The notes below the pieces were generated by a model that searched no databases, was not told the DNA's origin, and saw only the letters and a list, made by a program, of their open reading frames with translations. Shown in pieces: positions 3,673 to 58,139 of a stretch of 64,000 nucleotides of DNA (position 1 is its first letter; each line of letters starts with the position of its first letter). This DNA comes from an uncultured Opitutia bacterium (GTDB lineage: Bacteria; Verrucomicrobiota; Verrucomicrobiia; Opitutales; Opitutaceae), in contig CAIJFT010000186.1 of NCBI GenBank assembly GCA_903820035.1, positions 1 to 64,000 on the forward strand, in the 5' to 3' direction. The translations under genes were made by a program, and so were the position numbers.

Positions 3673-4362
3673 TCAGCGCAGGAAGTTGTATTTGAAAATC
3701 GCCCACAGCGCGCGGAAGCCGTCGCGCCAGCCGATCTTCTTCCCCTCGGCGTAGGTGCGGCCGTAGTAGCTGATGCCGACCTCGTAGATCACCACGTCGA
3801 GTTTCGCGACTTTGGCGGTGATCTCCGGTTCGAAGCCGAACCGGTTTTCCTCGATGGTGATTTTTTTCAGCACGTCGCGGCGGAAGACTTTGTAGCAGGT
3901 CTCCATGTCCGTGAGGTTGATGTTGGTCGCCATGTTCGAGAGGAGCGTGAGCACCTTGTTCCCGATCATGTGCCAGAAATAGACGACGCGGTGGGGCTGG
4001 CCGCCCTGGAAGCGCGAGCCGAACACGACATCGGCGCGGCCGTCGATGATGGGTTTGAGCAGGTGAGGATATTCCTGCGGGTCGTACTCGAGGTCCGCGT
4101 CCTGAACAATGATGGCGTCGCCCGTGGCGGCGTTGAAGCCGGTGCGGAGGGCGGCGCCCTTCCCTTGGTTGACCTCGTGATAAATGATCTTGTCGACGAG
4201 CGGGGCGATCTGGGTGCGGAGCAGGTCGCGGGTGCCGTCGCGCGAGCAGTCGTCGACGATGATGATTTCCTTGTCGGCGACCGGCGCCGCACGCACGCGA
4301 TCCACGATCGTGCGGATCGTCTTGGCCTCGTTGTAACAGGGAATGACGATGGAAAGCTTCAT
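3673..4362 (-). CDS. Glycosyltransferase family 2, dolichol/undecaprenyl-phosphate sugar synthase-like (DPM1/ArnC type)
   Basis: The 229-aa product starts with the GT2 motif [16 protein letters not shown] and has [12 protein letters not shown] (about residues 33-44), [11 protein letters not shown] and [10 protein letters not shown], the DxD-like metal/nucleotide-sugar site. GSRFQGG is typical of the DPM1/ArnC branch. It likely loads a sugar from an NDP-sugar onto polyprenyl phosphate on the cytoplasmic face. That product would be the donor for the GT-C proteins encoded just downstream on the same strand. It lacks the GtrB-type C-terminal membrane helices, so it is probably a soluble or peripheral enzyme. 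The start at 4362 was chosen because the GT2 fold begins there; an upstream extension of 32 residues has no family similarity. The leader (GATTCTTCTTTCCACCGC) is pyrimidine-rich with no Shine-Dalgarno sequence. Confidence 0.9.
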
Positions 4363-4802
4363 GCGGTGGAAAGAAGAATCAACACGGGTCCGGTGCGCAC
4401 GATTAAGTAAGCCGTTTCCGAGTCCACCACGAAAAAGCAGGTTGCCCCGTAGCCGCAACGGACTCCCGGCTCGACGATCGATGCGTCTTGCCGCGTAGAT
4501 GGTTTGTAATGCGCCGGCGGTGCCGGGGCAGGCGGGCAGGTGCAGGCCTCGCGCCGGCTAGGAGCGGTTGCAGAAACGGCGTCCTCGGCAAGCCGTCCTG
4601 CCTTGATTTGATCGGCACCAGGTGACGGGTGCTCCCTTCGATCCGGAGAAGCGGCCTCACGCTTTTGGGTATCACGTGCGGAACGTGGGCGAACGATCAT
4701 GTCGATGGGTCCAGCAGGGGATGCGCGATCGGCTTTCCGCCCGACCCACCGCACCCCAATTTGCTCGTCAGCCTAGACAAGCTTCGGCTCGGATGTGGGG
4801 CT
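4363..4802. other. Divergent intergenic region, no gene seen
   Basis: This stretch of about 440 bases separates a minus-strand GT2 from a plus-strand GT-C/TPR gene, so it should hold divergent promoters. No convincing -35/-10 pair, operator or terminator was found by eye. The short open frames in it have no recognisable family and lack ribosome-binding sites. Confidence 0.5.
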
Positions 4803-6698
4803 ATGCTGAATCGGGCTGCCGGATCCTCAGAACACGGTTCAACTCAGGAGCGGAAACCGGAGCCTGGCCGGAACCGTTGGGTGATCTGGCTGCTGATGGC
4901 GTTCATGATCTCGGTTTACGCGTGGATCGCCAGCGCGAACCTATGGCAAATGGGTGCGAGTCGGGCCGAAGACGCCTATTATAATCGGCTCGTGCGAGGA
5001 TTCCGCGCCGGTCAGCTCGACTTGAAAATTCAGATTCCGGACGGGTTGCGTGAGCTGCGGAATCCCTACGATCCGGTGGCGAATGAGCCATTCCGCGCGA
5101 CACTTCACGACACCAGCTATTACCGCGGCAAAATCTACCTCTATTTCGGCATCACCCCCGCCCTCGTGCTTTTTTGGCCCTTCGCGGTGTTGACGGGGAC
5201 CTATTTATCGCACGCCCAGGCCACCGTATTTTTTTGCGCCGTCGGACTCTTTGGGAGTGTAGCGCTTTTTCTTTCAATCCGGCGTCGATATTTCCCCGGT
5301 CCCCACGTCGGCCTCGACGCGATCGGCACGCTTGCCGTCGGCTTCGTCACGGCTGTGCCCGTGCTACTTGGGAGGGCGGATATCTGGGAGGTGCCGATCA
5401 GCTGTGCCTATGCGTTTTCTGTGCTCAGCCTCGGCGCCGTCTGGCAGGCGCTGCATGACGACAAGCGCCGTGGACGCTGGTTGGCGGCCGCAAGTCTTTG
5501 CTATGGCTTGGCGCTGGGCGCACGCCCATCCCTTTTATTCGGAGGCCTGATCCTGATCGTGCCGGTCATATGGGGTGTTCGTAGTCTGGCCAAACGGGGC
5601 CGGGCGCCCTGGCTTGAGGTATTCCGACTTTTGGCGGCCGCCTTCGGGCCCGTCATGTGTGTCGGCGCGGGACTGCTGCTCTACAATTTTGCCCGCTTTG
5701 ATCAGCTCGGCGAGTTCGGCCAAAAGTATCAGTTGGCAGGCGTCGAAGTCGCTCGGCAGAAACTTTTCAGCGTGGATTATATCGCGGTTAATTTTCGCAT
5801 TTATTTTCTCCAGCCGTTGCGCTGGAGCGGCGATTTTCCCTTTGCGCAGGGGATCAATGAACCGCCTCTTCCGCCCGGCCATTTGGGGGTGGACGGGGCG
5901 TTCGGGGCCTTGACCAATATCCCGTTTCTCTGGCTGGCGGGGGCCGCCTGCCTGGCGTGGCGGGCTCGGCGCCCGGAGGATCGTCGCGACCCCCTGCGGT
6001 GGTTCATCGTGGCGGCGGTACTTTTCTTTACCCTCTCTGCCGCCACGCTCTGTATGTTCGGTGGAGCGTGCGATCGCTACCAGGCGGAGTTTTTACCTGT
6101 GCTCACGTTGGTGGCGGTCGTCGGATTGCTCGAGTTGAACCGTATGCTCGTCGCGCATTTTTCCGTTCTCATGGTGGCCGGCGTATTGCTGGTTTTTTCC
6201 GCGGCCACCAACTGGCTTGCCAGCTACAAGTCGGGTCCGCAGGCCCAGATAACTTCCGGTAATCATTTGGCCTCCCTTGGTCAGTTGCCTTTGGCGATCA
6301 TCCAGTACCGGCGGGCACTCCTAACGGAGCCCGATTCTCCGCACGCCCATCACGGTCTCGGTCTGGCGCTCGCAAATTCCGGCAACGTGGCGGAGGCCAT
6401 CGGGCACTACCGGCTAGCCGTGCGTAATAAACCGGATTTTGCGGAATCATATAACTGCCTTGGAGTGGCTCTCCTTCGCCAAAATCAAGCGGGAGAAGCT
6501 GAGCGCGAATTCGCGGCCGCTTTGCGCGTGGCGCCCGGTATGTTTGAGGCCCATTTCGGACGGGCGGTGGCGTTGATCGCGTTAAATCGGGCCGACGACG
6601 CGATTCCCCACCTGGAGGAATCACTGCGGCTGAAGCCTGATTTCCAGAGAGCGCACGCCCTCCTTGAATCGTTAAGGAACAAAGGCATCCCCCGGTAA
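4803..6698 (+). CDS. Polytopic membrane protein with C-terminal TPR repeats (GT-C-like)
   Basis: The 631-aa product has a short cytoplasmic N-terminus, a first helix at about residues 28-45, an acidic periplasmic loop (GASRAEDAYYNRLVRGF), and about ten membrane helices up to about residue 490. Three to four TPR units follow in the last 130 residues (for example LPLAIIQYRRALLTEPDSP, then NVAEAIGHYRLAVRNKPDF). A GT-C-like membrane core fused to TPRs is the layout of TMTC-type protein O-mannosyltransferases and related bacterial proteins. The next gene has the same layout. The ATG at 4803 was chosen because the frame upstream shows no family features; an extension to 4629 is possible but unlikely. 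Base composition looks more AT-rich than the flanking genes by eye. Confidence 0.7.
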   Translation: MLNRAAGSSEHGSTQERKPEPGRNRWVIWLLMAFMISVYAWIASANLWQMGASRAEDAYYNRLVRGFRAGQLDLKIQIPDGLRELRNPYDPVANEPFRATLHDTSYYRGKIYLYFGITPALVLFWPFAVLTGTYLSHAQATVFFCAVGLFGSVALFLSIRRRYFPGPHVGLDAIGTLAVGFVTAVPVLLGRADIWEVPISCAYAFSVLSLGAVWQALHDDKRRGRWLAAASLCYGLALGARPSLLFGGLILIVPVIWGVRSLAKRGRAPWLEVFRLLAAAFGPVMCVGAGLLLYNFARFDQLGEFGQKYQLAGVEVARQKLFSVDYIAVNFRIYFLQPLRWSGDFPFAQGINEPPLPPGHLGVDGAFGALTNIPFLWLAGAACLAWRARRPEDRRDPLRWFIVAAVLFFTLSAATLCMFGGACDRYQAEFLPVLTLVAVVGLLELNRMLVAHFSVLMVAGVLLVFSAATNWLASYKSGPQAQITSGNHLASLGQLPLAIIQYRRALLTEPDSPHAHHGLGLALANSGNVAEAIGHYRLAVRNKPDFAESYNCLGVALLRQNQAGEAEREFAAALRVAPGMFEAHFGRAVALIALNRADDAIPHLEESLRLKPDFQRAHALLESLRNKGIPR

Positions 6699-6916: not shown

Positions 6917-8899
6917 ATGACCAGCGCCCGGATCCGGAACCATCGACGGCGTGTTGTGGAAATGACCGCGACCACCGGCACCGGGCCGGCGAATTCGGCG
7001 ATCCGATCCCCGAGGTTGGTCTGGCTTTTCGCCCTGCTGATCGCGGTCGTTGCGCTTTGGAACTGCCGGTCGGTGCTCGCTTTCGAGTTCGTTGCGCGCG
7101 ACGACGATATCAACATCTACTATAATCCGCATCTCGGCCCGCCCTCTGCGCCGGGCCTCACGTGGATGTTCACCGACCCCACCTACATGCGACGGTACGT
7201 GCCGATTGGCTGGCTGACGTTTTCCGTTGTGTATTACTTTTCCGGACTCTCACCGGTGGGCTATCATGCGGCCAACCTCGTCTTGCACGTTTCAAATACG
7301 CTGCTGCTTTATATCCTGTTAGGGATGCTATGCCGGAGGTTCGGTCATAAAACCGAGCCGGGTTGGCGTGCCCTCGCGGCCGCGGCGGGCGCGGCGTTCT
7401 GGGCGTTGCATCCGCTACGGGCTGAAACGATCGGCTGGTCGTCGGGCCTGCTCTATGGTGCGGCTGGATTTTGGGCTTTGGGCAGCCTGCTGGCCTACCT
7501 CCGACTCCAGGGCTCCGGCCCCGCAGGACGCCTTCGGATGCTCTGGCTGGTTCTGGCTTCCCTCTGTTACACCATGTCGATCCTGACGTATCCAATCGGG
7601 ATTATGTTGGTTGCCGCCTTTGTTCTTATCGATGTCGCTCGGCCTCTGCACCGCGAAGCCCCGGAGCGCCCTCCGTGGCGGCGTCTGGTCATCGAAAAGC
7701 TGGCCTTTATCGTGCCCGGCGCCGCGATCCTGATCGTCACCCTGCTGGCGCGTTTTGAGGCTTCCGCTTTTTGGCCCCGGCCGCCGACTGCGGAGGAGTT
7801 TTCGTGGGTACAGCGGGCGGCCCAGGCTTTCGGCGTCTGGGTTCACTATGTTGGGGCGACTGCCTGGCCGGACGCTCTGACACCGGGGCCGACCTGGTTG
7901 TTTAAGGTGAACCCGTTCGATCCGGTCTTCGTTGGCAGCGCACTCTCCGTGGTCGGCGTAACTCTATTGGCGACACAGATAAGGTCCGGGCGGAAGTGCC
8001 TGTGGCTGTGGCTGGCCTATCTCGGTTTGCTGGCGCCTTTTCTCGGCTTCACCGAGCACCCTCATTTCGCCTCTGATCGTTATTCCTATTTGTCGTGTCT
8101 TCCGATCAGTGTGGCGGTTGCGGGCGGTCTGCTGCCAATCCAAGGCTTCGCCCGCGCAGTGGCGATCGTGGTGGTGGTAATTTGGCTGGCGGGATTGGCC
8201 GTCCTGCAGCGGGCGCAATTGCGCACCTGGGAGAGCACCGACACGGTGTTGGCCAGAACGATTGAACGATCGCGCGATCACGATTACAGCCTGCACAATT
8301 ACAGCCTTTGGATGTCGTATCATGCGAATGCGGGGCGTCGTGAAGAGGCCCGCGACGTTCTGCGCAAGGCGGAGCGCTTTGCCCCGGATGATCCGCGGGT
8401 CCTGATGATGGCGCGTGAGCTCACAAGCCGTGGTGGATCGGCGACCGGGCGCGGCGAGGATATTACCCTGCCGCCCGCGGCGAAGCTTCACGCCAAGCTG
8501 GCGCAGGATTTTTCCCGGACGGGTCGCGTCATGGAGGCGCAGGAACATTTTGCAGCGGCCCGAAGGTTGGCGCCGGACTCGGCGACGCTGGCCTATAATT
8601 GGGCGGTATGGTGTGCGGTTACGGGCGAGCCCGTCCGCAGTCTGAACCTGTACCACCATGCGATAGGCGCAACAGCCCCCGACCGGCCGGCACCGACCGC
8701 ACGGGTCAAACTGCTCCTGCTGATCTCGGATGCATTTGCGGCGCGAGGCGAGCCAACGCCGGCCCTCCGGGCCGCTGAAGCCGCCTTGCGACTTGCGCGG
8801 GTAGTTCCGGAATCCGGCCTAGCGGACTCGATTGAGGCACAGGTGGAGCGCATCCGGGGAGACACGCGGCTCCGCACCAGCGCTCGGCGACTGCCGTGA
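6917..8899 (+). CDS. TMTC-like GT-C membrane protein with TPR tail (putative O-glycosyltransferase)
   Basis: The 660-aa product has a helix near residues 32-49, then FVARDDDINIYYNPHL, an acidic loop like that of bacterial TMTC proteins. PIGWLTFSVVYYFSGLSPVGYHAANL and ALHPLRAETIGWSSG match the conserved loops of that group (P-L-x-W-L-T/S-F and H-P-x-R-x-E-x-x-x-W). About ten helices are followed by a helical-repeat region (about 470-650). In eukaryotes TMTCs transfer mannose from a lipid carrier to proteins; here the acceptor is unknown. The ATG at 6917 is preceded by GGAGG (6907-6911, spacing 5 nt), one of the few clear Shine-Dalgarno sequences in the window. That decides the start over an in-frame ATG 57 codons upstream. 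Confidence 0.78.
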   Translation: MTSARIRNHRRRVVEMTATTGTGPANSAIRSPRLVWLFALLIAVVALWNCRSVLAFEFVARDDDINIYYNPHLGPPSAPGLTWMFTDPTYMRRYVPIGWLTFSVVYYFSGLSPVGYHAANLVLHVSNTLLLYILLGMLCRRFGHKTEPGWRALAAAAGAAFWALHPLRAETIGWSSGLLYGAAGFWALGSLLAYLRLQGSGPAGRLRMLWLVLASLCYTMSILTYPIGIMLVAAFVLIDVARPLHREAPERPPWRRLVIEKLAFIVPGAAILIVTLLARFEASAFWPRPPTAEEFSWVQRAAQAFGVWVHYVGATAWPDALTPGPTWLFKVNPFDPVFVGSALSVVGVTLLATQIRSGRKCLWLWLAYLGLLAPFLGFTEHPHFASDRYSYLSCLPISVAVAGGLLPIQGFARAVAIVVVVIWLAGLAVLQRAQLRTWESTDTVLARTIERSRDHDYSLHNYSLWMSYHANAGRREEARDVLRKAERFAPDDPRVLMMARELTSRGGSATGRGEDITLPPAAKLHAKLAQDFSRTGRVMEAQEHFAAARRLAPDSATLAYNWAVWCAVTGEPVRSLNLYHHAIGATAPDRPAPTARVKLLLLISDAFAARGEPTPALRAAEAALRLARVVPESGLADSIEAQVERIRGDTRLRTSARRLP

Positions 8900-9188
8900 T
8901 TGAACTTGCGGAGTTACTAAGCTGCCAACGCAAAGCAGGGATGATGGGAAGGCATGTTTGAGAAATGAGAACGACGAAGCGCTGGGACTTGCCCGAGCGC
9001 CCCTGCACCGCGAAATCATCGCAGAATAAGAACGGATCCTGCCTCTCCTGCCGGAGCGAAGCCTCGCCCGACCTGAGAGTGGGGGCTCTATCCACGCCGC
9101 AACTACAGCGCGCGTGTCAGGGCGATCACCTCGAGCACGATGGTGCGAGCCTTGACCGGCTCGGACGTGAAACTCAGCATGCGCGGAA
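8900..9188. other. Intergenic spacer, nothing recognised
   Basis: The spacer between two plus-strand polysaccharide genes holds TTGACC at 9152-9157 but no convincing -10 at the right distance. No hairpin followed by a T-run is visible. A transcription start for the flippase operon could lie here, but the sequence does not prove it. Confidence 0.35.
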
Positions 9189-50865: not shown

Positions 50866-51615
50866 ATGACGCCCCCTTCGCCATTTTCCCCGGCCCCGTC
50901 CGACGACCGCCTACCCCGTTACCACCGGATCCGCGACGCCCTGCAGTCGGAGATCGCCGCGCACACGTGGCGGCCGGGCCAGCCGTTGCCGACCGAGACC
51001 GAGTTGGCGAAGAACCACGGCGTCTCCATCGGGACCGTGCGCAAGGCGGTCGACTCCCTCGTGGCCGACGGCGTGCTTGAGCGGTTTCAGGGCAAGGGCA
51101 CCTTCATCCGCCGGCCGGATTTTCAGTCGTCGCTCTTTCGTTTCTTCCGCCACCTGAGCGTCGACGGGACGGTGCGCATTCCCGAGAGCCGCATCCTGAA
51201 ACGCGAGGAAACCACGATGCCGGCCGCGGTGGCGACCGCCATGAACTGCTCGCCGGGGGCGGCGGCGATCCGCCTGCTGCGCGTGCGCTCGCTCGACGGC
51301 AAACCGCTCCTGGCGGAGGATATTTTTCTCCCGCGCGCCCGCTTTGCGCCACTGCTGGACATCGATCCGCGCGAATTCGGCGACCTGCTCTATCCGCTCT
51401 ACGAGCAGTACTGCGGCGTGATCGTGACTTCCGCGCGGGAGACGCTCAGCGCGGAGGCGGCGACGGTGCGGCACGCCAAGCTGTTGGAGCTCGAGCCCGG
51501 TGCCCCGGTTATCGTCATCGAGCGCGTGGCGCTTGGGCTCGACCGGCACCCGCTTGAGTGGCGCCAATCGCGCGGCTCGGCCGACCAGTTTCGTTATCAC
51601 GTCGAGATCCGCTGA
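50866..51615 (+). CDS. GntR family transcriptional regulator with UTRA ligand domain (HutC type)
   Basis: The 249-aa product has a winged-helix domain (about 17-85): RYHRIRDALQSEIAAHTWRPGQPLPTETELAKNHGVSIGTVRKAVDSLVADGVLERFQGKG, with the recognition helix near GVSIGTVRKAV. A UTRA effector-binding domain follows, AAIRLLRVRSLDGKPLLAEDIFLP... to FRYHVEIR at the C-terminus. HutC-type regulators bind small molecules such as sugars or amino-acid derivatives and leave the operator. It heads a plus-strand set: MFS transporter, LigI-like hydrolase and TonB receptor. A palindrome lies right at its own start, suggesting self-repression. Confidence 0.93.
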   Translation: MTPPSPFSPAPSDDRLPRYHRIRDALQSEIAAHTWRPGQPLPTETELAKNHGVSIGTVRKAVDSLVADGVLERFQGKGTFIRRPDFQSSLFRFFRHLSVDGTVRIPESRILKREETTMPAAVATAMNCSPGAAAIRLLRVRSLDGKPLLAEDIFLPRARFAPLLDIDPREFGDLLYPLYEQYCGVIVTSARETLSAEAATVRHAKLLELEPGAPVIVIERVALGLDRHPLEWRQSRGSADQFRYHVEIR

Positions 51616-51647
51616 ACGGATCGCGCATCCCCTCAACCCCTTTTTTC

Positions 51648-52898
51648 ATGTTCCGCTGGTACCGGGAAGTAAACCCGACGGAGCGCCGGACTTTTTGGTC
51701 CTGCTTCGGCGGCTGGGCGCTGGACGCCCTCGACGTGCAGATGTTCAGCATCGCGATCCCGGCGCTGATCGCGGCGTTCCACCTCGACAAGGCGCAGGCC
51801 GGTTCGATCAGCAGCGTGACGCTGGTGACGTCCGCGCTCGGCGGTTGGGTGGCGGGGGCCTTGTCGGACCGTTACGGCCGCGTGCGCGTGCTGCAGTTGA
51901 CGATTGTCTGGTTTTCGCTGTTCACGTTTCTCGGCGCCTTTGCGCAGTCGTTTCCCCAACTGCTCGTCCTCAAGGCGCTGCAGGGTTTCGGCTTTGGCGG
52001 CGAGTGGGCGGCGGGCGCGGTGCTGATGGCGGAGACGATCCGGCCCGAGCACCGCGGCAAGGTGATGGGGACGGTGCAGAGCGCATGGGCGGTGGGCTGG
52101 GGTGGTTCGGTGCTGCTCTACACCGCGGTGTTCACCTGGTTCCCCGGTGACGTGGCCTGGCGCGTACTCTTTGGCGTCGGTTTGCTGCCGGCGCTTTTCA
52201 TCGTTTATGTGCGCCGGGCGGTGCCCGAGCCGGTGCGGGTAGCGCCGGTCGTCGGGGTGGGGCAGCGGCGGCCGAACGAACTCTTTGCCATTTTTTCGCC
52301 CGAGGTTTTGCGGGTTACGATCGCCGGCTCGATCCTCGGGGTGGGCGCGCACGGTGGTTACTCGGCGTTGATGACTTGGCTGCCGACGTATCTGAAAACG
52401 GAGCGCAAGCTCTCCGTCCTTGGTACGGGCGGGTACCTCGCGGTCGTTATTATCGCGTTCTGGTGCGGCTGCATGGCGAGCGCGCATCTGATCGACCGCA
52501 TCGGGCGGCGGCGAAATATCATGCTTTTTGCCGTGTGCTGCGTGGGCACGGTGCTCTGTTACCTTTTCCTGCCGCTCACGGACCGGCAGATGTTGGTGCT
52601 CGGCTTTCCGCTTGGTTTTTTTGCCGCCGGCATTCCGGCGAGCCTCGGGGCGCTGTTCAATGAGCTCTATCCCGCCGCCGTCCGCGGCACGGGCGTGGGC
52701 TTCTGTTATAATTTCGGCCGCATCATCTCGGCCGCCTTTCCCTGGTTGGTCGGGGCCATGGCCGAGCGCGCGTCACTGGGTCACGCGATCGGGATTTGTG
52801 CCGCGATCGCTTACTCGATTGTGGTCGTCGCCGTGCTGGCGCTACCAGAGACGAACGGCCGGCGCCTCGACGGGGTCGTTACGGGAGGCCGCGCTTGA
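51648..52898 (+). CDS. MFS transporter (metabolite:H+ symporter type)
   Basis: The 416-aa product has 12 predicted helices. The start MFRWYREVNPTERRTFWSCFGGWALDALDVQMF and the A-loop GALSDRYGRVRVL (G-x-x-x-D-R-x-G-R), plus DRIGRRRNIMLF in the mirrored loop, identify the MFS, nearest to the sialate/aromatic-acid symporter groups. FGFGGEWAAGAVLMAE is the typical helix-5 motif. It probably imports an organic acid or sugar acid at the inner membrane. The pyrimidine leader CCTCAACCCCTTTTTTC precedes the ATG. The stop overlaps the TTG start of the hydrolase gene. Confidence 0.9.
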   Translation: MFRWYREVNPTERRTFWSCFGGWALDALDVQMFSIAIPALIAAFHLDKAQAGSISSVTLVTSALGGWVAGALSDRYGRVRVLQLTIVWFSLFTFLGAFAQSFPQLLVLKALQGFGFGGEWAAGAVLMAETIRPEHRGKVMGTVQSAWAVGWGGSVLLYTAVFTWFPGDVAWRVLFGVGLLPALFIVYVRRAVPEPVRVAPVVGVGQRRPNELFAIFSPEVLRVTIAGSILGVGAHGGYSALMTWLPTYLKTERKLSVLGTGGYLAVVIIAFWCGCMASAHLIDRIGRRRNIMLFAVCCVGTVLCYLFLPLTDRQMLVLGFPLGFFAAGIPASLGALFNELYPAAVRGTGVGFCYNFGRIISAAFPWLVGAMAERASLGHAIGICAAIAYSIVVVAVLALPETNGRRLDGVVTGGRA

Positions 52899-53818
52899 AA
52901 CGCTTTACCCCGATGACCCGCCGCACCTTCACCGGCACCCTGGCCGCCCTCGCGGGCGTCACCGTGCTCCCGCCTCTCCTTCGCGCCGCCAGCCGGCCCA
53001 CTCCCTCGCCCTCCCTCTCCGCCGTGGACACACACGCCCATATTTTTCATCGCGGCCTGCCCGCCATTGGCACGGCCCGCTACGTACCTGATTATGACGC
53101 GCCCGTCGCCGACTACCTGAAGCAGCTCGACGCGCACGGGATTTCGCACGGCGTGCTCGTGCAGCCGAGTTTCCTCGGTACTGACAACAGCTACCTCGTT
53201 GCCGCGCTCCGCCAGCATCCGGCGCGGCTTCGCGGGGTGGTCGTGGTCGAGCCGACGATCGCCGCATCCGCGCTGCGGGAATTTGCCGCCGCCGGTGTGG
53301 CCGGCGTGCGCCTGAATCTTATCGGCCAGGAGATCCCGGCCTTCGCCGCCGGCCCGTGGCCGGATTTTTTGCAGCGCCTGAAGTCCGTCGACTTTTTCGT
53401 CGAAGTGCAGCGGGAAGCCCGCGATCTGCCCCGGATCGTCGGCCCGCTCCTCGCCGCCGGGCTCCAGGTCGTCGTTGATCACTTCGGCCGGCCGGACCCC
53501 GCGCGGGGCATCGACGATCCGGGTTTCCGCTACCTTCTGCAACAGGCCGCCTCGCGCCGGCTGTGGCTCAAGCTCTCCGCCTCCTACCGTAACGGTACTG
53601 GCGATACCGGAGCCAAGATTGCCGCCGCCGCCGCCCCGCTGGCCCGCGCGGCCTTCGGGCCCGAACGTTTGCTCTGGGGCAGCGATTGGCCGCACACCCA
53701 ATTTGAGAAGGTCGCCACCTACGCCGCCGCCCGGGCCCAGCTCGATCACTGGATCCCGGATCCCGGTGAGCGTACCGCGATTCTGCAAGCGTCTCCGGCC
53801 GCGCTTTTCCGGATCTAA
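52895..53818 (+). CDS. Exported amidohydrolase-family protein, LigI (2-pyrone-4,6-dicarboxylate lactonase)-like
   Basis: The 307-aa product has a TIM-barrel metal-dependent hydrolase core (Amidohydro_2): SAVDTHAHIFHRGLP (H-x-H motif), GVLVQPSFLGTDNSYL, GLQVVVDHFGRPDP (D-H on strand) and ERLLWGSDWPHTQFE (Asp of strand 8). These match LigI and related lactonases. A signal with twin-arginine-like TRRTFTG precedes the core. TTG at 52895 is proposed as the start: GGGAGG (52883-52888) lies 6 nt before it and it overlaps the MFS stop as TTGA. An ATG at 52913 is the alternative. An exported LigI-like enzyme is unusual, since LigI itself is cytosolic. Confidence 0.85.
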   Translation: MKRFTPMTRRTFTGTLAALAGVTVLPPLLRAASRPTPSPSLSAVDTHAHIFHRGLPAIGTARYVPDYDAPVADYLKQLDAHGISHGVLVQPSFLGTDNSYLVAALRQHPARLRGVVVVEPTIAASALREFAAAGVAGVRLNLIGQEIPAFAAGPWPDFLQRLKSVDFFVEVQREARDLPRIVGPLLAAGLQVVVDHFGRPDPARGIDDPGFRYLLQQAASRRLWLKLSASYRNGTGDTGAKIAAAAAPLARAAFGPERLLWGSDWPHTQFEKVATYAAARAQLDHWIPDPGERTAILQASPAALFRI

Positions 53819-53876: not shown

Positions 53877-56747
53877 ATGAAAATCCCAAACCCTGATCAC
53901 CGCTCCGGCCTTAGCCGCCTCGTGTGGGCCGCGCTTTTGGCCGCGACTCCCTTGCTCGCCCAGGCGCAGTCCGCCGCCAAGCCGGCTTCCGCCGCCGACG
54001 CGGCCGATGCCAAGAGCGAGGTCGTGAAGCTCGAGACCTTTAACGTCTCCGGTTCCCAGATCCGCGGCGCCAGCACCTTCACGGCGCCGACGCCGGTGCT
54101 CGTGGTCAGCTACGAGAATCTCCTCGCGGCCGCCCCGACCAACATGGCCGAAGGCTTGAAACAACTGCCGAGCATCGCGCCCGGCGGCGGCCAGACCGTT
54201 GGCGGCGGCACGGGGAACAACAGCGCCAATTTTCTCAATCTCCGCGGCCTCGGTGTCACGCGCACCCTTACCCTGCTCGACGGCCGGCGCTTCACGCCCA
54301 GCGGTCCGACGGGGCAGATCGACGCCAATCTGATCCCGCAGGGGCTGGTCGACCGCGTTGACATCGTCAACGGCGGCGCGTCCGCCGCTTACGGCTCCGA
54401 TGCCGTCGGGGGCGTCGTGAATTTCGTCCTCAACAAGGAATTCACGGGCTTCAAGTCCGACCTCGTCTACGGCCAGGCGCAGGCGGGTGACAACCAGGAG
54501 TACAAAGTCGCCGTGACCTACGGGACCGACTATCTGAAGGGCCGCGGTCACTTCATCTTCGGCGGCGAATACGCCAACAACAAGGGCGTCAACGGCGACG
54601 CGCGCGACCTCCGCACCAGTGAGCCGAATCAGATCCCCGATCCGACGAACACCTCCAAGGTGATCCGCGCGACGGACATTCGCTCTCCGTTCACCACCGG
54701 CGGCCTGATCATCACCGGTGCCGGCGGCACGGCGGCGAACAACGCCCTCATCCGCGGCATCATGTTCGGTCCCGGCGGTCTGCAGCAGCCGTACAACTAC
54801 GGCACGCTCTCGACCACGATCGGCACGACGAACGGATTCCAGAACGGCGGCGACGGCTTCCGCATCGGCACCTCGCAGGAAATTGTCCGTCCGCTCACCC
54901 GCAAGAATCTGTTCGGCCGGACCGACTTTAAGCTCGTCGACACCCTCACGCTCTTTGTCGAGGGCTCGTACGGCGAGTCGCACATGGACGTGCAGAATAG
55001 CCCCACGACGCACCTGCTCACGATCAAGCGCGATAACGCTTTCCTCGCCCAGGCCGCACCGAGTCTCGTGGCGCAGATGACCTCGCTCGGGGTCACCAGT
55101 TTCACCATGAACCGCCTGACGTTGGAGCGCGGGCTCACCGAGTCGCACATCAACGACAAGAACGTCCGCGGCCTCGCGGGCCTCTCGGCCAAGTTCGGCG
55201 ACTGGAACGCGGAGGTCTCCTATCAGGCCGGTCAGAACGATATCAGCATTCCGGTGACGAATAATCTGCTCACCGCCCGCATGGCCGTTGCGGCCGATGC
55301 GGTCCTCGTCGGTGGCCAGATCGTGCCCGCGGCCGCCGCCGCGAATCCCGGCAGCGTCGCCTTCAATCCGTTCGGCGCCGGCGCCCCGTCCAAGGCCGCG
55401 CTCGACTACGTCATGGGCCGTTCCGAGTACGACAACGTCACGAAGCAGCGCGTGGCCGACGCCAAAATTTCCGGGAATCTCTTTGCGCTCCCCGCCGGCC
55501 CGCTCGCCGTCGCGGCCGGCGCCCAGTGGCGCACCCTTGAGTCCACCACCACCGCCGACGCACTTTCGCTGGCCGGCGCGTACCGGTTGGCCAACAACCA
55601 GCCGTTCACCGGCAAGTACACGATCATGGAGGAGTTCGTTGAAACGCAGGCGCCGCTCCTCAAGGACTTCACGCTCGCCAAGAAGATCAGCGCCAACGTC
55701 GCGGCGCGGCACACCCATTACTCCACCAGCGGCGACGCCAATGCGTGGAAGGCCGGCGTGGTCTGGCAGATTGATTCCGACCTTCGCCTGCGCGCCTCGC
55801 GTTCCCGCGACATCCGTGCCCCCAACCTTAACGAGCTCTTCTCCGCGGGCACCCAGACCAACGGCAACATCAGCGATAATTTTCCCGGCGGCACCGGTCT
55901 TACCTTCCAGGGCGTGCCGAACATCGCCAGCGGCAACCTCAACCTGAAACCCGAGGTCGCGGCATCGTCCGTCATCGGCTTCGTCTATCAACCGGCCTGG
56001 CTGAAGGGCGTGAGCGTCGCGGTCGATTTTTATACGACGAAGATTACCGATGCGATTTTCAACGCCGGCGGCGCCAACGCCGTCCGCGAGTGCGACCTGA
56101 ATCCGGCCTCGCCGCTCTGCTCGTTCGTCACGCGCGGCCCCACGTCGGCGAGTCCGCGCGCGGTCATTCGCACGCAGACCTCGCCGGTGAACCTGAACTC
56201 GGAGTTCTCCCGCGGCATGGATGTTGAGACCAGCTACCGGGTGCCGCTCGCGTCGTGGTTCTCCGCGACCAAGCCGGGCAGCCTGAATCTGCGCGCCATC
56301 GCGGGCTACATCGACGAGTCGTCGGCGGTTTCGCCGCTGGCCAATACGATCAACCAGGCCGGCAACGGAACCTCGAATCCGACTTCCGGGGTGGCGGCGC
56401 TCCCGCGGGTCCGCGGCACCTTCTCGATCAACTATTCGCGCGGCGCGGTTGCCACCTTCCTGCAGACGCGCTACATCGGCCGCATGACCTGGGACAAGAC
56501 GCGTATCCTCGGCGTGACGACGGACTTCAACGCGGTGCCCTCGGCGACCTACTTCGACGGTCAGATCGCCTACAAGACGAAGTTGGCCGGTTTCGACACC
56601 GAGATCTACCTGAACGTGCAGAACCTCCTCGATAAGGGCCTCGTCTATTCGCCCCGCACCGGCGGCGCGACGCCGTTGCCGACGGATCCCGGTCTCTTTG
56701 ACCAGGTCGGCCGCATGTTCCGTCTCGGCGTTAAAACCCGCTTCTAA
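53877..56747 (+). CDS. TonB-dependent receptor
   Basis: The 956-aa outer-membrane protein has a signal peptide (about 1-30), a short linker and a plug with VVKLETFNVSGSQIRG, APTPVLVVSYENLL, LKQLPSIAP, FLNLRGLGVTRTLTLLDGRRFTPSG and VDRVDIVNGGASAAYGSDAVGGVVNFVLNKEF. This pattern is typical of large substrate receptors (for sugars, peptides or aromatic compounds) rather than siderophores. A 22-strand barrel follows, ending FRLGVKTRF. It is 58 nt after the LigI-like gene, so it may be in the GntR-controlled unit and bring the same substrate across the outer membrane. Confidence 0.93.
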   Translation: MKIPNPDHRSGLSRLVWAALLAATPLLAQAQSAAKPASAADAADAKSEVVKLETFNVSGSQIRGASTFTAPTPVLVVSYENLLAAAPTNMAEGLKQLPSIAPGGGQTVGGGTGNNSANFLNLRGLGVTRTLTLLDGRRFTPSGPTGQIDANLIPQGLVDRVDIVNGGASAAYGSDAVGGVVNFVLNKEFTGFKSDLVYGQAQAGDNQEYKVAVTYGTDYLKGRGHFIFGGEYANNKGVNGDARDLRTSEPNQIPDPTNTSKVIRATDIRSPFTTGGLIITGAGGTAANNALIRGIMFGPGGLQQPYNYGTLSTTIGTTNGFQNGGDGFRIGTSQEIVRPLTRKNLFGRTDFKLVDTLTLFVEGSYGESHMDVQNSPTTHLLTIKRDNAFLAQAAPSLVAQMTSLGVTSFTMNRLTLERGLTESHINDKNVRGLAGLSAKFGDWNAEVSYQAGQNDISIPVTNNLLTARMAVAADAVLVGGQIVPAAAAANPGSVAFNPFGAGAPSKAALDYVMGRSEYDNVTKQRVADAKISGNLFALPAGPLAVAAGAQWRTLESTTTADALSLAGAYRLANNQPFTGKYTIMEEFVETQAPLLKDFTLAKKISANVAARHTHYSTSGDANAWKAGVVWQIDSDLRLRASRSRDIRAPNLNELFSAGTQTNGNISDNFPGGTGLTFQGVPNIASGNLNLKPEVAASSVIGFVYQPAWLKGVSVAVDFYTTKITDAIFNAGGANAVRECDLNPASPLCSFVTRGPTSASPRAVIRTQTSPVNLNSEFSRGMDVETSYRVPLASWFSATKPGSLNLRAIAGYIDESSAVSPLANTINQAGNGTSNPTSGVAALPRVRGTFSINYSRGAVATFLQTRYIGRMTWDKTRILGVTTDFNAVPSATYFDGQIAYKTKLAGFDTEIYLNVQNLLDKGLVYSPRTGGATPLPTDPGLFDQVGRMFRLGVKTRF

Positions 56748-56845: not shown

Positions 56846-57490
56846 ATGTCTGCGCGGCGCCGGGTTGCGGGCGTGCTCGCGGCCTTCGTTGCGTTGCACG
56901 CGCCGGGCGGTTTTGCCGCGGAGTCGCCGGTCGCCGCCCTGCCGCTCGATCTCCGCGACCGCCCGGCGCTCGGGCGCGAGGATGCGCCGGTGGTGGTGCT
57001 CGAAATCTCGAGCTTCAAGTGCAGCCACTGCCGCACGTTCCATGCGGAGGTTTTTCCGAAACTGCGCGAGCAGTACATCGACGCAGGCAAAGTCCGCTGG
57101 GTGGTGCTCAACGCCTCGGATGAGAACGCCGATCAGTTCGCAAAGATCTTCGCGTTGGCGCGCTGCGCCGGCCGCCAGGACCGGTACTGGGAGCTCTTGG
57201 ACGAACTGTTCCGGGTGGCGCACCGCGCGCCGAGCTTCCTGGAGGATCTGCTGGCGAAAAACACCGTGCTGGATCGCCCCGCGCTCGACCAGTGCCTGCG
57301 CGACCGCGGCTTGCGCAACGTGCTCGCGGACGATTTTGCGCGGTATGCCGCGCTCAAGGTGCGCGGTACGCCGACGTTTCTAATGTGGAAGACCAGCCGC
57401 GACGGGGTGCGCACCGAGACGACGGTCGCCGGCGGGCAGAAACTCGACTATTTCCAGCGGGTGCTCGACGGCCTGCTCAACCTGCCGTGA
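56846..57490 (+). CDS. DsbA-like thioredoxin-fold protein
   Basis: The 214-aa product (237 if the ATG at 56777 is used) has an exported N-terminus MSARRRVAGVLAAFVALHAPGGFAAE and a thioredoxin fold. KCSHCRTFH holds the C-S-H-C redox pair (59/62), the helical insert lies at about 80-160, and KVRGTPTFLMW carries the cis-proline loop. C-x-H-C plus the helical insert is the DsbA layout, so it should oxidise or carry disulfides in the periplasm. The start at 56846 gives a clean signal peptide. Its stop overlaps the GTG of a 60-aa membrane protein, which overlaps a MauE-like gene. Confidence 0.87.
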   Translation: MSARRRVAGVLAAFVALHAPGGFAAESPVAALPLDLRDRPALGREDAPVVVLEISSFKCSHCRTFHAEVFPKLREQYIDAGKVRWVVLNASDENADQFAKIFALARCAGRQDRYWELLDELFRVAHRAPSFLEDLLAKNTVLDRPALDQCLRDRGLRNVLADDFARYAALKVRGTPTFLMWKTSRDGVRTETTVAGGQKLDYFQRVLDGLLNLP

Positions 57491-57669
57491 ACCTGCCGAC
57501 ACTACTCCGGGTTGGGGCGCGGATATTATGCGGGGTGCGCCCGCGGCGGATGGCCCTCCTTCTTGGCGCCGCGGTCGTGGCGGGTTTGGCCTGTGATTGG
57601 TTCCGGGGCGAGGAGCGCCTCTTGTTTTCCCGCCCTCTGCCGGCATTTCGCACCGTCACTCCGCGATGA
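57487..57669 (+). CDS. Small single-span membrane protein or lipoprotein (60 aa), unknown
   Basis: A 60-residue product runs from GTG 57487, overlapping the DsbA-like stop as GTGA, to a TGA shared with the next ATG (ATGA). Arg-rich RVRPRR-like residues (8-21) precede a hydrophobic span MALLLGAAVVAGLAC (22-36) followed by DWFRGEER. The Cys at 36 with G-L-A before it and Asp after it could be a marginal lipobox; otherwise it is a single-span protein with Cys15 and Cys36. The double overlap argues that it is translated. No family is known. Confidence 0.6.
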   Translation: MNLPTLLRVGARILCGVRPRRMALLLGAAVVAGLACDWFRGEERLLFSRPLPAFRTVTPR

Positions 57670-58139
57670 AAGTCCCGTGGCCGAAAATTCTGCGCGGGGC
57701 GGTGCGGATCGCCGTGGGGGCCGTGCTCGTGGCGGCCGGTCTGCTCAAACTGGCGCGACCACTTGAGTTTCACGCCGATCTCCTGGCGTACGGCCTGCCG
57801 TTGCCGGAGGCGGCCTGGCGCTTCGTGGCGGTGATATTCCCTTGGGTGGAGGTGCTCGGGGGGGCGGCGTTCGCGGCCGGCTTCTGGCCCGAGACCGTCG
57901 GTGTACTCGTGGTGACGATGGCGTTGGTCTTTGTCGGCCTCCTCGGGCAAGCTTTGGTCCGTGGCTTGGATCTACATTGCGGTTGCTTTGGCGCCGCGGG
58001 GGCCGAGCTCTTTGGCCATCCGGTCGCGGCACTCGGCCGGGCCGTCCTGATTTTGGTCGCTGCAGGGTGGCTCCTGTGCCCGCCCCCGCCGTATCCGTCC
58101 CGTGATTATCCGCTTGGAGTGGAGACCCCGCGCCGCTAA
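57666..58139 (+). CDS. MauE/DoxX-like membrane protein with CxC motif
   Basis: The 157-aa protein has four predicted helices. KILRGAVRIAVGAVLVAAGLLKLARPLEF and PWVEVLGGAAFAAGFWP match the MauE/DoxX superfamily, and LDLHCGCFGAAG (Cys105 and Cys107) is the conserved C-G-C-F-G motif of MauE proteins, which help make disulfide-rich methylamine dehydrogenase. It is the third gene of a tightly overlapping set with a DsbA-like protein and a 60-aa membrane protein. By analogy it may reoxidise the DsbA-like partner, in place of DsbB or VKOR; that is inference. Confidence 0.85.
   Translation: MKVPWPKILRGAVRIAVGAVLVAAGLLKLARPLEFHADLLAYGLPLPEAAWRFVAVIFPWVEVLGGAAFAAGFWPETVGVLVVTMALVFVGLLGQALVRGLDLHCGCFGAAGAELFGHPVAALGRAVLILVAAGWLLCPPPPYPSRDYPLGVETPRR

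Follow-up and report, generated by a model that had tools for sequence, protein, structure and literature searches.

The closest described arrangement to the one reported here is the DsbL-DsbI-AssT operon of uropathogenic E. coli and Salmonella, in which a DsbA-like protein and its membrane partner, a relative of DsbB, are encoded together with a single client, a periplasmic enzyme, in hosts that also have the general DsbA-DsbB pathway; the accessible part of the source mentions no small third protein (PMC3526765). MauE, known with MauD from methylamine utilisation, has been speculated to help disulfide formation (PMC7794033, accessible part). Thioredoxin-fold proteins encoded with an uptake system are also described for the Campylobacter fet cluster, where FetE has reductase activity; FetE and FetF go with an inner-membrane iron system, and the accessible portion of the paper names no MauE partner (PMC10783030). 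Our search of the open-access literature, within the text it makes available, found no paper on a unit of MauE, DsbA and receptor, and the term 'MauE' mostly matched other words (PMC8406197, for instance, was a false match).

Here, we describe a locus from an uncultured Opitutia bacterium (contig CAIJFT010000186.1, positions 1 to 64,000; this whole stretch of 64,000 nucleotides is the window referred to below), in which the gene for a TonB-dependent receptor is followed by a triad of genes for a DsbA-like protein, a 60-aa membrane protein and a MauE-like protein. The triad bears on the question of what re-oxidises DsbA-like proteins when neither DsbB nor VKOR is present. Its features, in window positions, are the following:

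53877..56747, forward strand: TonB-dependent receptor, 956 aa, the proposed client (Pfam plug and beta-barrel matches)
56091..56120, forward strand: codons of receptor C739 to C748 (C-x8-C), a proposed disulfide (cysteine conservation in orthologs)
56846..57490, forward strand: dsbA, a DsbA-like periplasmic thioredoxin-fold protein, 214 aa (Pfam PF13462, Thioredoxin_4, E 1.2e-26; PF01323, DSBA, E 2.5e-6)
57020-57031, forward strand: C-S-H-C active site of the DsbA-like protein, C59/C62
57487..57669, forward strand: small, a 60-aa single-span membrane protein with a GTG start (conservation, alignment, hydropathy, dN/dS)
57666..58139, forward strand: mauE, a MauE-like four-helix membrane protein, 157 aa (Pfam MauE, E 5.4e-19)
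57978-57986, forward strand: C-G-C of the MauE-like protein (C105-G-C107-F-G)

As read from its genes alone, the locus would encode an oxidase, a membrane partner and a client together, in the manner of a client-dedicated Dsb operon, and we consider it fairly likely that the triad is a receptor-dedicated disulfide-forming module. Because its membrane partner is a MauE, the triad would work like the DsbL-DsbI system without being a member of that family; the elements that vary, we infer, are MauE in the place of DsbB and an outer-membrane receptor as client instead of a periplasmic enzyme, with the 60-aa protein as an additional component. With methylamine utilisation the triad shares the MauE family and a disulfide role that is a prediction in both cases, whereas its partner is a Thioredoxin_4 DsbA, its client would be a receptor, and no mau genes were recognised in the frames read around the triads (receptor, transporters and others). 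Compared with FetE and FetF, it likewise places a thioredoxin-fold protein beside an uptake system, and differs in having a MauE and a receptor.

The dsbA-small-mauE triad

The first-pass annotation of this DNA had described three genes joined by GTGA and ATGA overlaps and had proposed a search for the same gene order in other genomes. The genes and their overlaps are present as claimed (GTGA at 57487-57490 between dsbA and small, ATGA at 57666-57669 between small and mauE), and a complete dsbA-small-mauE order was found at 17 of the 20 places that carry a small gene. In all 17 complete triads mauE starts on the stop codon of small, as ATGA or TTGA; the dsbA-small junction is a 4-base overlap in seven of them, a 2-base gap in eight and a wider gap in two. 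Incomplete places were seen at L063, which lies at a contig end and where MauE is not visible, at L075, with an AraC-like frame upstream and a MauE start downstream followed by the contig end, and at L081, where MauE is present and the 225 bases upstream are only non-coding. The outcomes that had been named as speaking against the triad, a small frame without conservation and DsbA-like and MauE-like genes that do not co-occur, did not appear, because the three genes form a conserved unit. When the DsbA alignment was run as a profile against contigs of GTDB genomes, it returned 24 loci. All but one carry Opitutaceae, Opitutae, Opitutia or Opitutus in their titles, the other being titled only Verrucomicrobiota, and at the sensitivity of the scan no locus was found beyond records so titled.

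The description of the first gene product as a C-S-H-C thioredoxin-fold protein is borne out by its Thioredoxin_4 match and by C59-S-H-C62. Its profile matches solved BdbD and DsbA chains, and C59, C62, T175 and P176, the last two forming the Thr-Pro loop, are invariant in 20 aligned rows. The active-site His occurs in 17 of these 20 rows and is Gln in the three rows from the genus g26; C-x-H-C was read in 19 DsbAs outside g26, and C-x-Q-C in seven of seven within it. By its fold match, its C-x-H-C site and its Thr-Pro loop, the protein fits the Thioredoxin_4/BdbD-type family, with a predicted oxidase activity. A further DsbA-like gene, more distantly related, is present in the window's genome (contig C319, L228 3967-4794, E 2.6e-24) and adjoins a 742-aa frame with seven Cys.

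The 60-aa frame is a real conserved gene, more than chance would produce. A search confined to 252 genomes of Opitutaceae gave 20 matches at E < 1e-9 in 19 genomes of seven genera, with the next match at E 0.001; the query was a six-row profile, and six of the 20 matches are query rows and 14 are new. The dN/dS of the gene is 0.10-0.50 (9 pairs). From alignment and hydropathy the protein would start with a positive N-terminus, cross the membrane once and end in a tail of ~20 residues; no Pfam family matched it above the family's cut-off. It had been taken for a membrane protein or a lipoprotein: the single span by hydropathy upholds the former, and the latter is dropped, a Cys at the lipobox position being found in only 5 of 20 rows (window, L064, L065, L075 and L079).

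The MauE-like protein scores 69.2 bits against the MauE profile (PF07291), whose curated cut-off is 27, and C105 and C107 of its C-G-C-F-G stretch, which had already been pointed out in the annotation, belong to a C-G-C that all 22 aligned rows share. Four long helices are seen in a structure model (pLDDT 87.9), and the loop that joins the third of them to the fourth carries the C-G-C. The redox potential of CGC peptides makes them suited to oxidation. The solved fold nearest to the model is NACHO/TMEM35A (Z 12.9), with vitamin K carboxylase (Z 8.0) among unrelated chains and a VKOR-like chain at Z 7.5 and rmsd 10.5, all values of a kind that helical bundles reach without kinship. The protein gave no match to the DsbB and VKOR Pfam profiles, the MauE profile none to solved chains at E up to 1, and the model none in Foldseek at E <= 0.001.

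The annotation had seen no DsbB or VKOR, and at the sensitivity of Pfam the same is true of the entire genome of the window, in which neither the DsbB (PF02600) nor the VKOR (PF07884) profile found a match. None of 11 genomes tested, six of which carry the small gene, gave a DsbB match, and VKOR was found in three of 35 (G003, G145 and G155), i.e. not in the remaining 32; G145 combines a VKOR match and a triad in one genome.

The seven genomes of g26 (loci L146, L148, L150, L152, L153, L163 and L164) keep the receptor Cys pair and the DsbA, and lack small and this MauE: no small-gene match lies below E 0.01, and no MauE exceeds the cut-off in six of the seven, the exception, G153, having one MauE beside a rhodanese-like frame. 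MauE is therefore not needed in every lineage; the seven genomes probably stand for one or two events. In G245 and G077, small and MauE lie together on one contig and a DsbA gene lies on another. Since small and MauE are jointly absent from g26 and jointly present in G245 and G077, the small gene goes with MauE rather than with DsbA, and its product would be an accessory of MauE.

The upstream receptor and its cysteine pair

The client of the triad had been called unclear, the flanking exported proteins being Cys-poor. The receptor encoded directly upstream, however, has exactly two Cys, C739 and C748, only nine residues apart, and this TonB-dependent receptor is probably the client. Of the 17 complete triads, 15 directly follow a TonB-dependent receptor gene on the same strand, and in L071 and L076 one other gene intervenes; from receptor end to DsbA start, measured to the chosen DsbA start, the distance is 8 to about 460 bases in 15 of the 17 places. 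The nearest upstream receptor has a close Cys pair at 16 of the 17 triads, the exception being L076, with no Cys. The receptors beside the triads are of different kinds, some of about 950-1090 aa and others of 709-743 aa that resemble catecholate receptors, each with a close pair at its own site, and those of L074 and L080 resemble a different type and have the pair at other sites. As for the dsbA genes on separate contigs, that of G077 follows a receptor with a Cys pair, and that of G245 converges with a receptor having three close Cys. Intervening genes were seen at L071, where a PGA_cap protein (4259-5752; nearest a lasso peptide epimerase model, below its cut-off) lies between receptor and dsbA, and at L076, where a 620-aa protein with three redoxin stretches (7253-9112, minus strand; ResA/TlpA-like) lies between the Cys-free receptor and the triad.

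The window's own genome (G000, 6.05 Mb) has at least 150 TonB receptor plug matches, and the next-closest match to the window receptor in it is 30% identical. As a control we took 60 other receptors of this genome out of these plug matches, chosen by plug score and frame length and not at random. A crude count gave two or more Cys beyond residue 50 in three of the 60 and at most one in 57; on reading, none of the 60 showed a clear close pair within its mature part, L247 being unsettled. The Cys pair of L247 precedes the plug by 177-184 residues and is probably upstream of the real start; L254 has its pair before the signal peptide, and L248 has two single Cys, 62 apart. The two other receptors in the window have one and zero Cys.

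Orthologs of the window receptor (E <= 1e-120) were found in 26 of the 252 genomes, and 24 of them are readable at the Cys site; those of G126 and G138 break off before it, and a search of both genomes found neither the remainders of these receptors nor a DsbA match. A dsbA lies downstream of 22 of the 24 (14 triads, G140 and the seven g26 genomes), and C-x8-C is kept in all 22, in the case of G234 in the second of two split receptor frames; in G140 and G155 the contig ends inside dsbA. The receptors of G136 and G142, 78% and 75% identical to that of the window, have no module downstream, and their Cys positions are occupied by Ser/Ala and Ser/Ser, respectively. Neither the genome of G136 (91% complete) nor that of G142 (95% complete) gave a DsbA of this type, and G136 has the window's order MFS-amidohydrolase-receptor-second receptor without the triad. 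When 23 receptors were placed in a tree, all 200 bootstrap trees kept G136 and G142 apart, although two Cys-loss events are not required by the well-supported branches alone. The 22 Cys-keeping orthologs are not independent of each other, because they have one receptor lineage in common. The receptor is the likely client, because two triad-free relatives have lost exactly the two Cys that would be joined; this joint loss of receptor Cys and module amounts to a natural experiment that names the client.

The structure model of the receptor is poor (mean pLDDT 42, too low for distances), and only its strand order was used. It has C739 and C748 within a long stretch, 723-776, that is followed by seven strands, which weakly supports a position on the outer side for the pair, in a putative surface loop. 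Before the receptor (50866-53818) lie genes for a GntR/UTRA regulator, an MFS transporter, nearest the aromatic-acid symport family, and an Amidohydro_2 protein, nearest 4-sulfomuconolactone hydrolase, all below NCBIfam cut-offs; the order GntR/UTRA-MFS-Amidohydro_2-receptor recurs in some relatives and is perhaps the receptor's uptake pathway.

A proposed route of oxidation and its alternatives

In the reading that we prefer, the receptor gene (53877-56747) and the triad would probably be read as one unit. The receptor would cross the inner membrane reduced, and the DsbA-like protein, with its C-S-H-C site, would join C739 to C748, in a surface loop, while the receptor inserts into the outer membrane or before that. 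The MauE-like protein is probably the oxidase of this DsbA, which it would re-oxidise through its predicted periplasmic C-G-C pair, and would hand the electrons on to a quinone in the membrane. The conserved outer tail of the 60-aa protein, whose gene is coupled to mauE, may serve as a docking point for DsbA. More tentatively, MauE and the 60-aa subunit could add to DsbB and VKOR a membrane enzyme of a third kind, making disulfides de novo for DsbA and here serving one outer-membrane receptor in bacteria where DsbB was not found and VKOR mostly was not either. This question about MauE is directly testable, because MauE is tied by overlapping genes to a DsbA and to one nameable client with one Cys pair. 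Counting against this reading, structure searches with MauE found no convincing DsbB or VKOR fold. Also counting against it are the readable module-free orthologs, of which there are only two, the common receptor lineage of the 22 others, the Cys-free receptor beside the complete triad of L076, the absence of small and this MauE from g26, the VKOR match in the triad genome G145, and the poor receptor model on which the position of the loop depends.

The retention of receptor pair and DsbA in g26 without small and this MauE would also be expected if DsbA alone served the receptor and were re-oxidised by small oxidants or oxygen, with MauE and small not oxidising thiols but helping the receptor or the DsbA as assembly factors or chaperones; the solved fold nearest to the MauE model, NACHO/TMEM35A, is itself a receptor assembly factor. 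We regard this as unlikely, since the CGC is invariant in every aligned MauE and the g26 DsbAs, which lack this MauE, have lost the active-site His. It could further be that the triad merely travels beside the receptor by shared descent, with a Cys pair that drifts or has another role. Most triads do share one receptor lineage, so that the adjacency of triad and receptor does not amount to 17 independent events, and the readable module-free orthologs are just two; yet different receptor kinds stand beside the module, each with a close pair at its own site, and in the module-free orthologs both Cys were lost jointly, with different replacements and in two places of the tree, which makes shared descent alone improbable.

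Finally, the direction of the chemistry could be the opposite, in a reducing or isomerising system in which DsbA keeps the receptor pair or an imported thiol substrate reduced or reshuffled and MauE carries electrons from inside. Thioredoxin-like proteins encoded with iron uptake can be reductases, as the accessible account of Campylobacter FetE illustrates (PMC10783030), and at L076 a ResA/TlpA-like protein lies between receptor and DsbA. Such a system is very improbable in view of the C-x-H-C site, of nearest solved relatives that are of the DsbA/BdbD kind, and of a MauE in which the CGC pair alone is conserved, with no helix Cys to carry electrons across the membrane.

Rhodanese-linked MauE loci in the same family

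In 41 of 100 genomes, 52 MauE places were listed, of which 30 became loci; these and L002 make 31 loci, six of them belonging to the triad or small-MauE group and 25 to a rhodanese group. MauE is accompanied by a membrane-anchored rhodanese in all 25 of the latter (L002 and L008-L031; the rhodanese profile itself derives from 20 of them), often behind a DUF1573-like frame, and neither this DsbA nor the small gene was found in any of the 25 loci read. The DUF1573-rhodanese-MauE loci resemble the triad in the gene ahead of mauE, which encodes a small single-span or membrane-anchored protein and often overlaps mauE in its codons. They differ from it in that a rhodanese replaces the small protein and no DsbA of this kind is present, and in a tree the DsbA-linked MauEs are split from the rhodanese-linked ones by a branch with support 100/99. 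We considered whether the small protein is a relic of the membrane rhodanese; profile alignment gave a probability of 48% over the N-terminus and of 6% over the whole protein, and such an origin is not claimed. The window's genome itself holds a second MauE, near a rhodanese.
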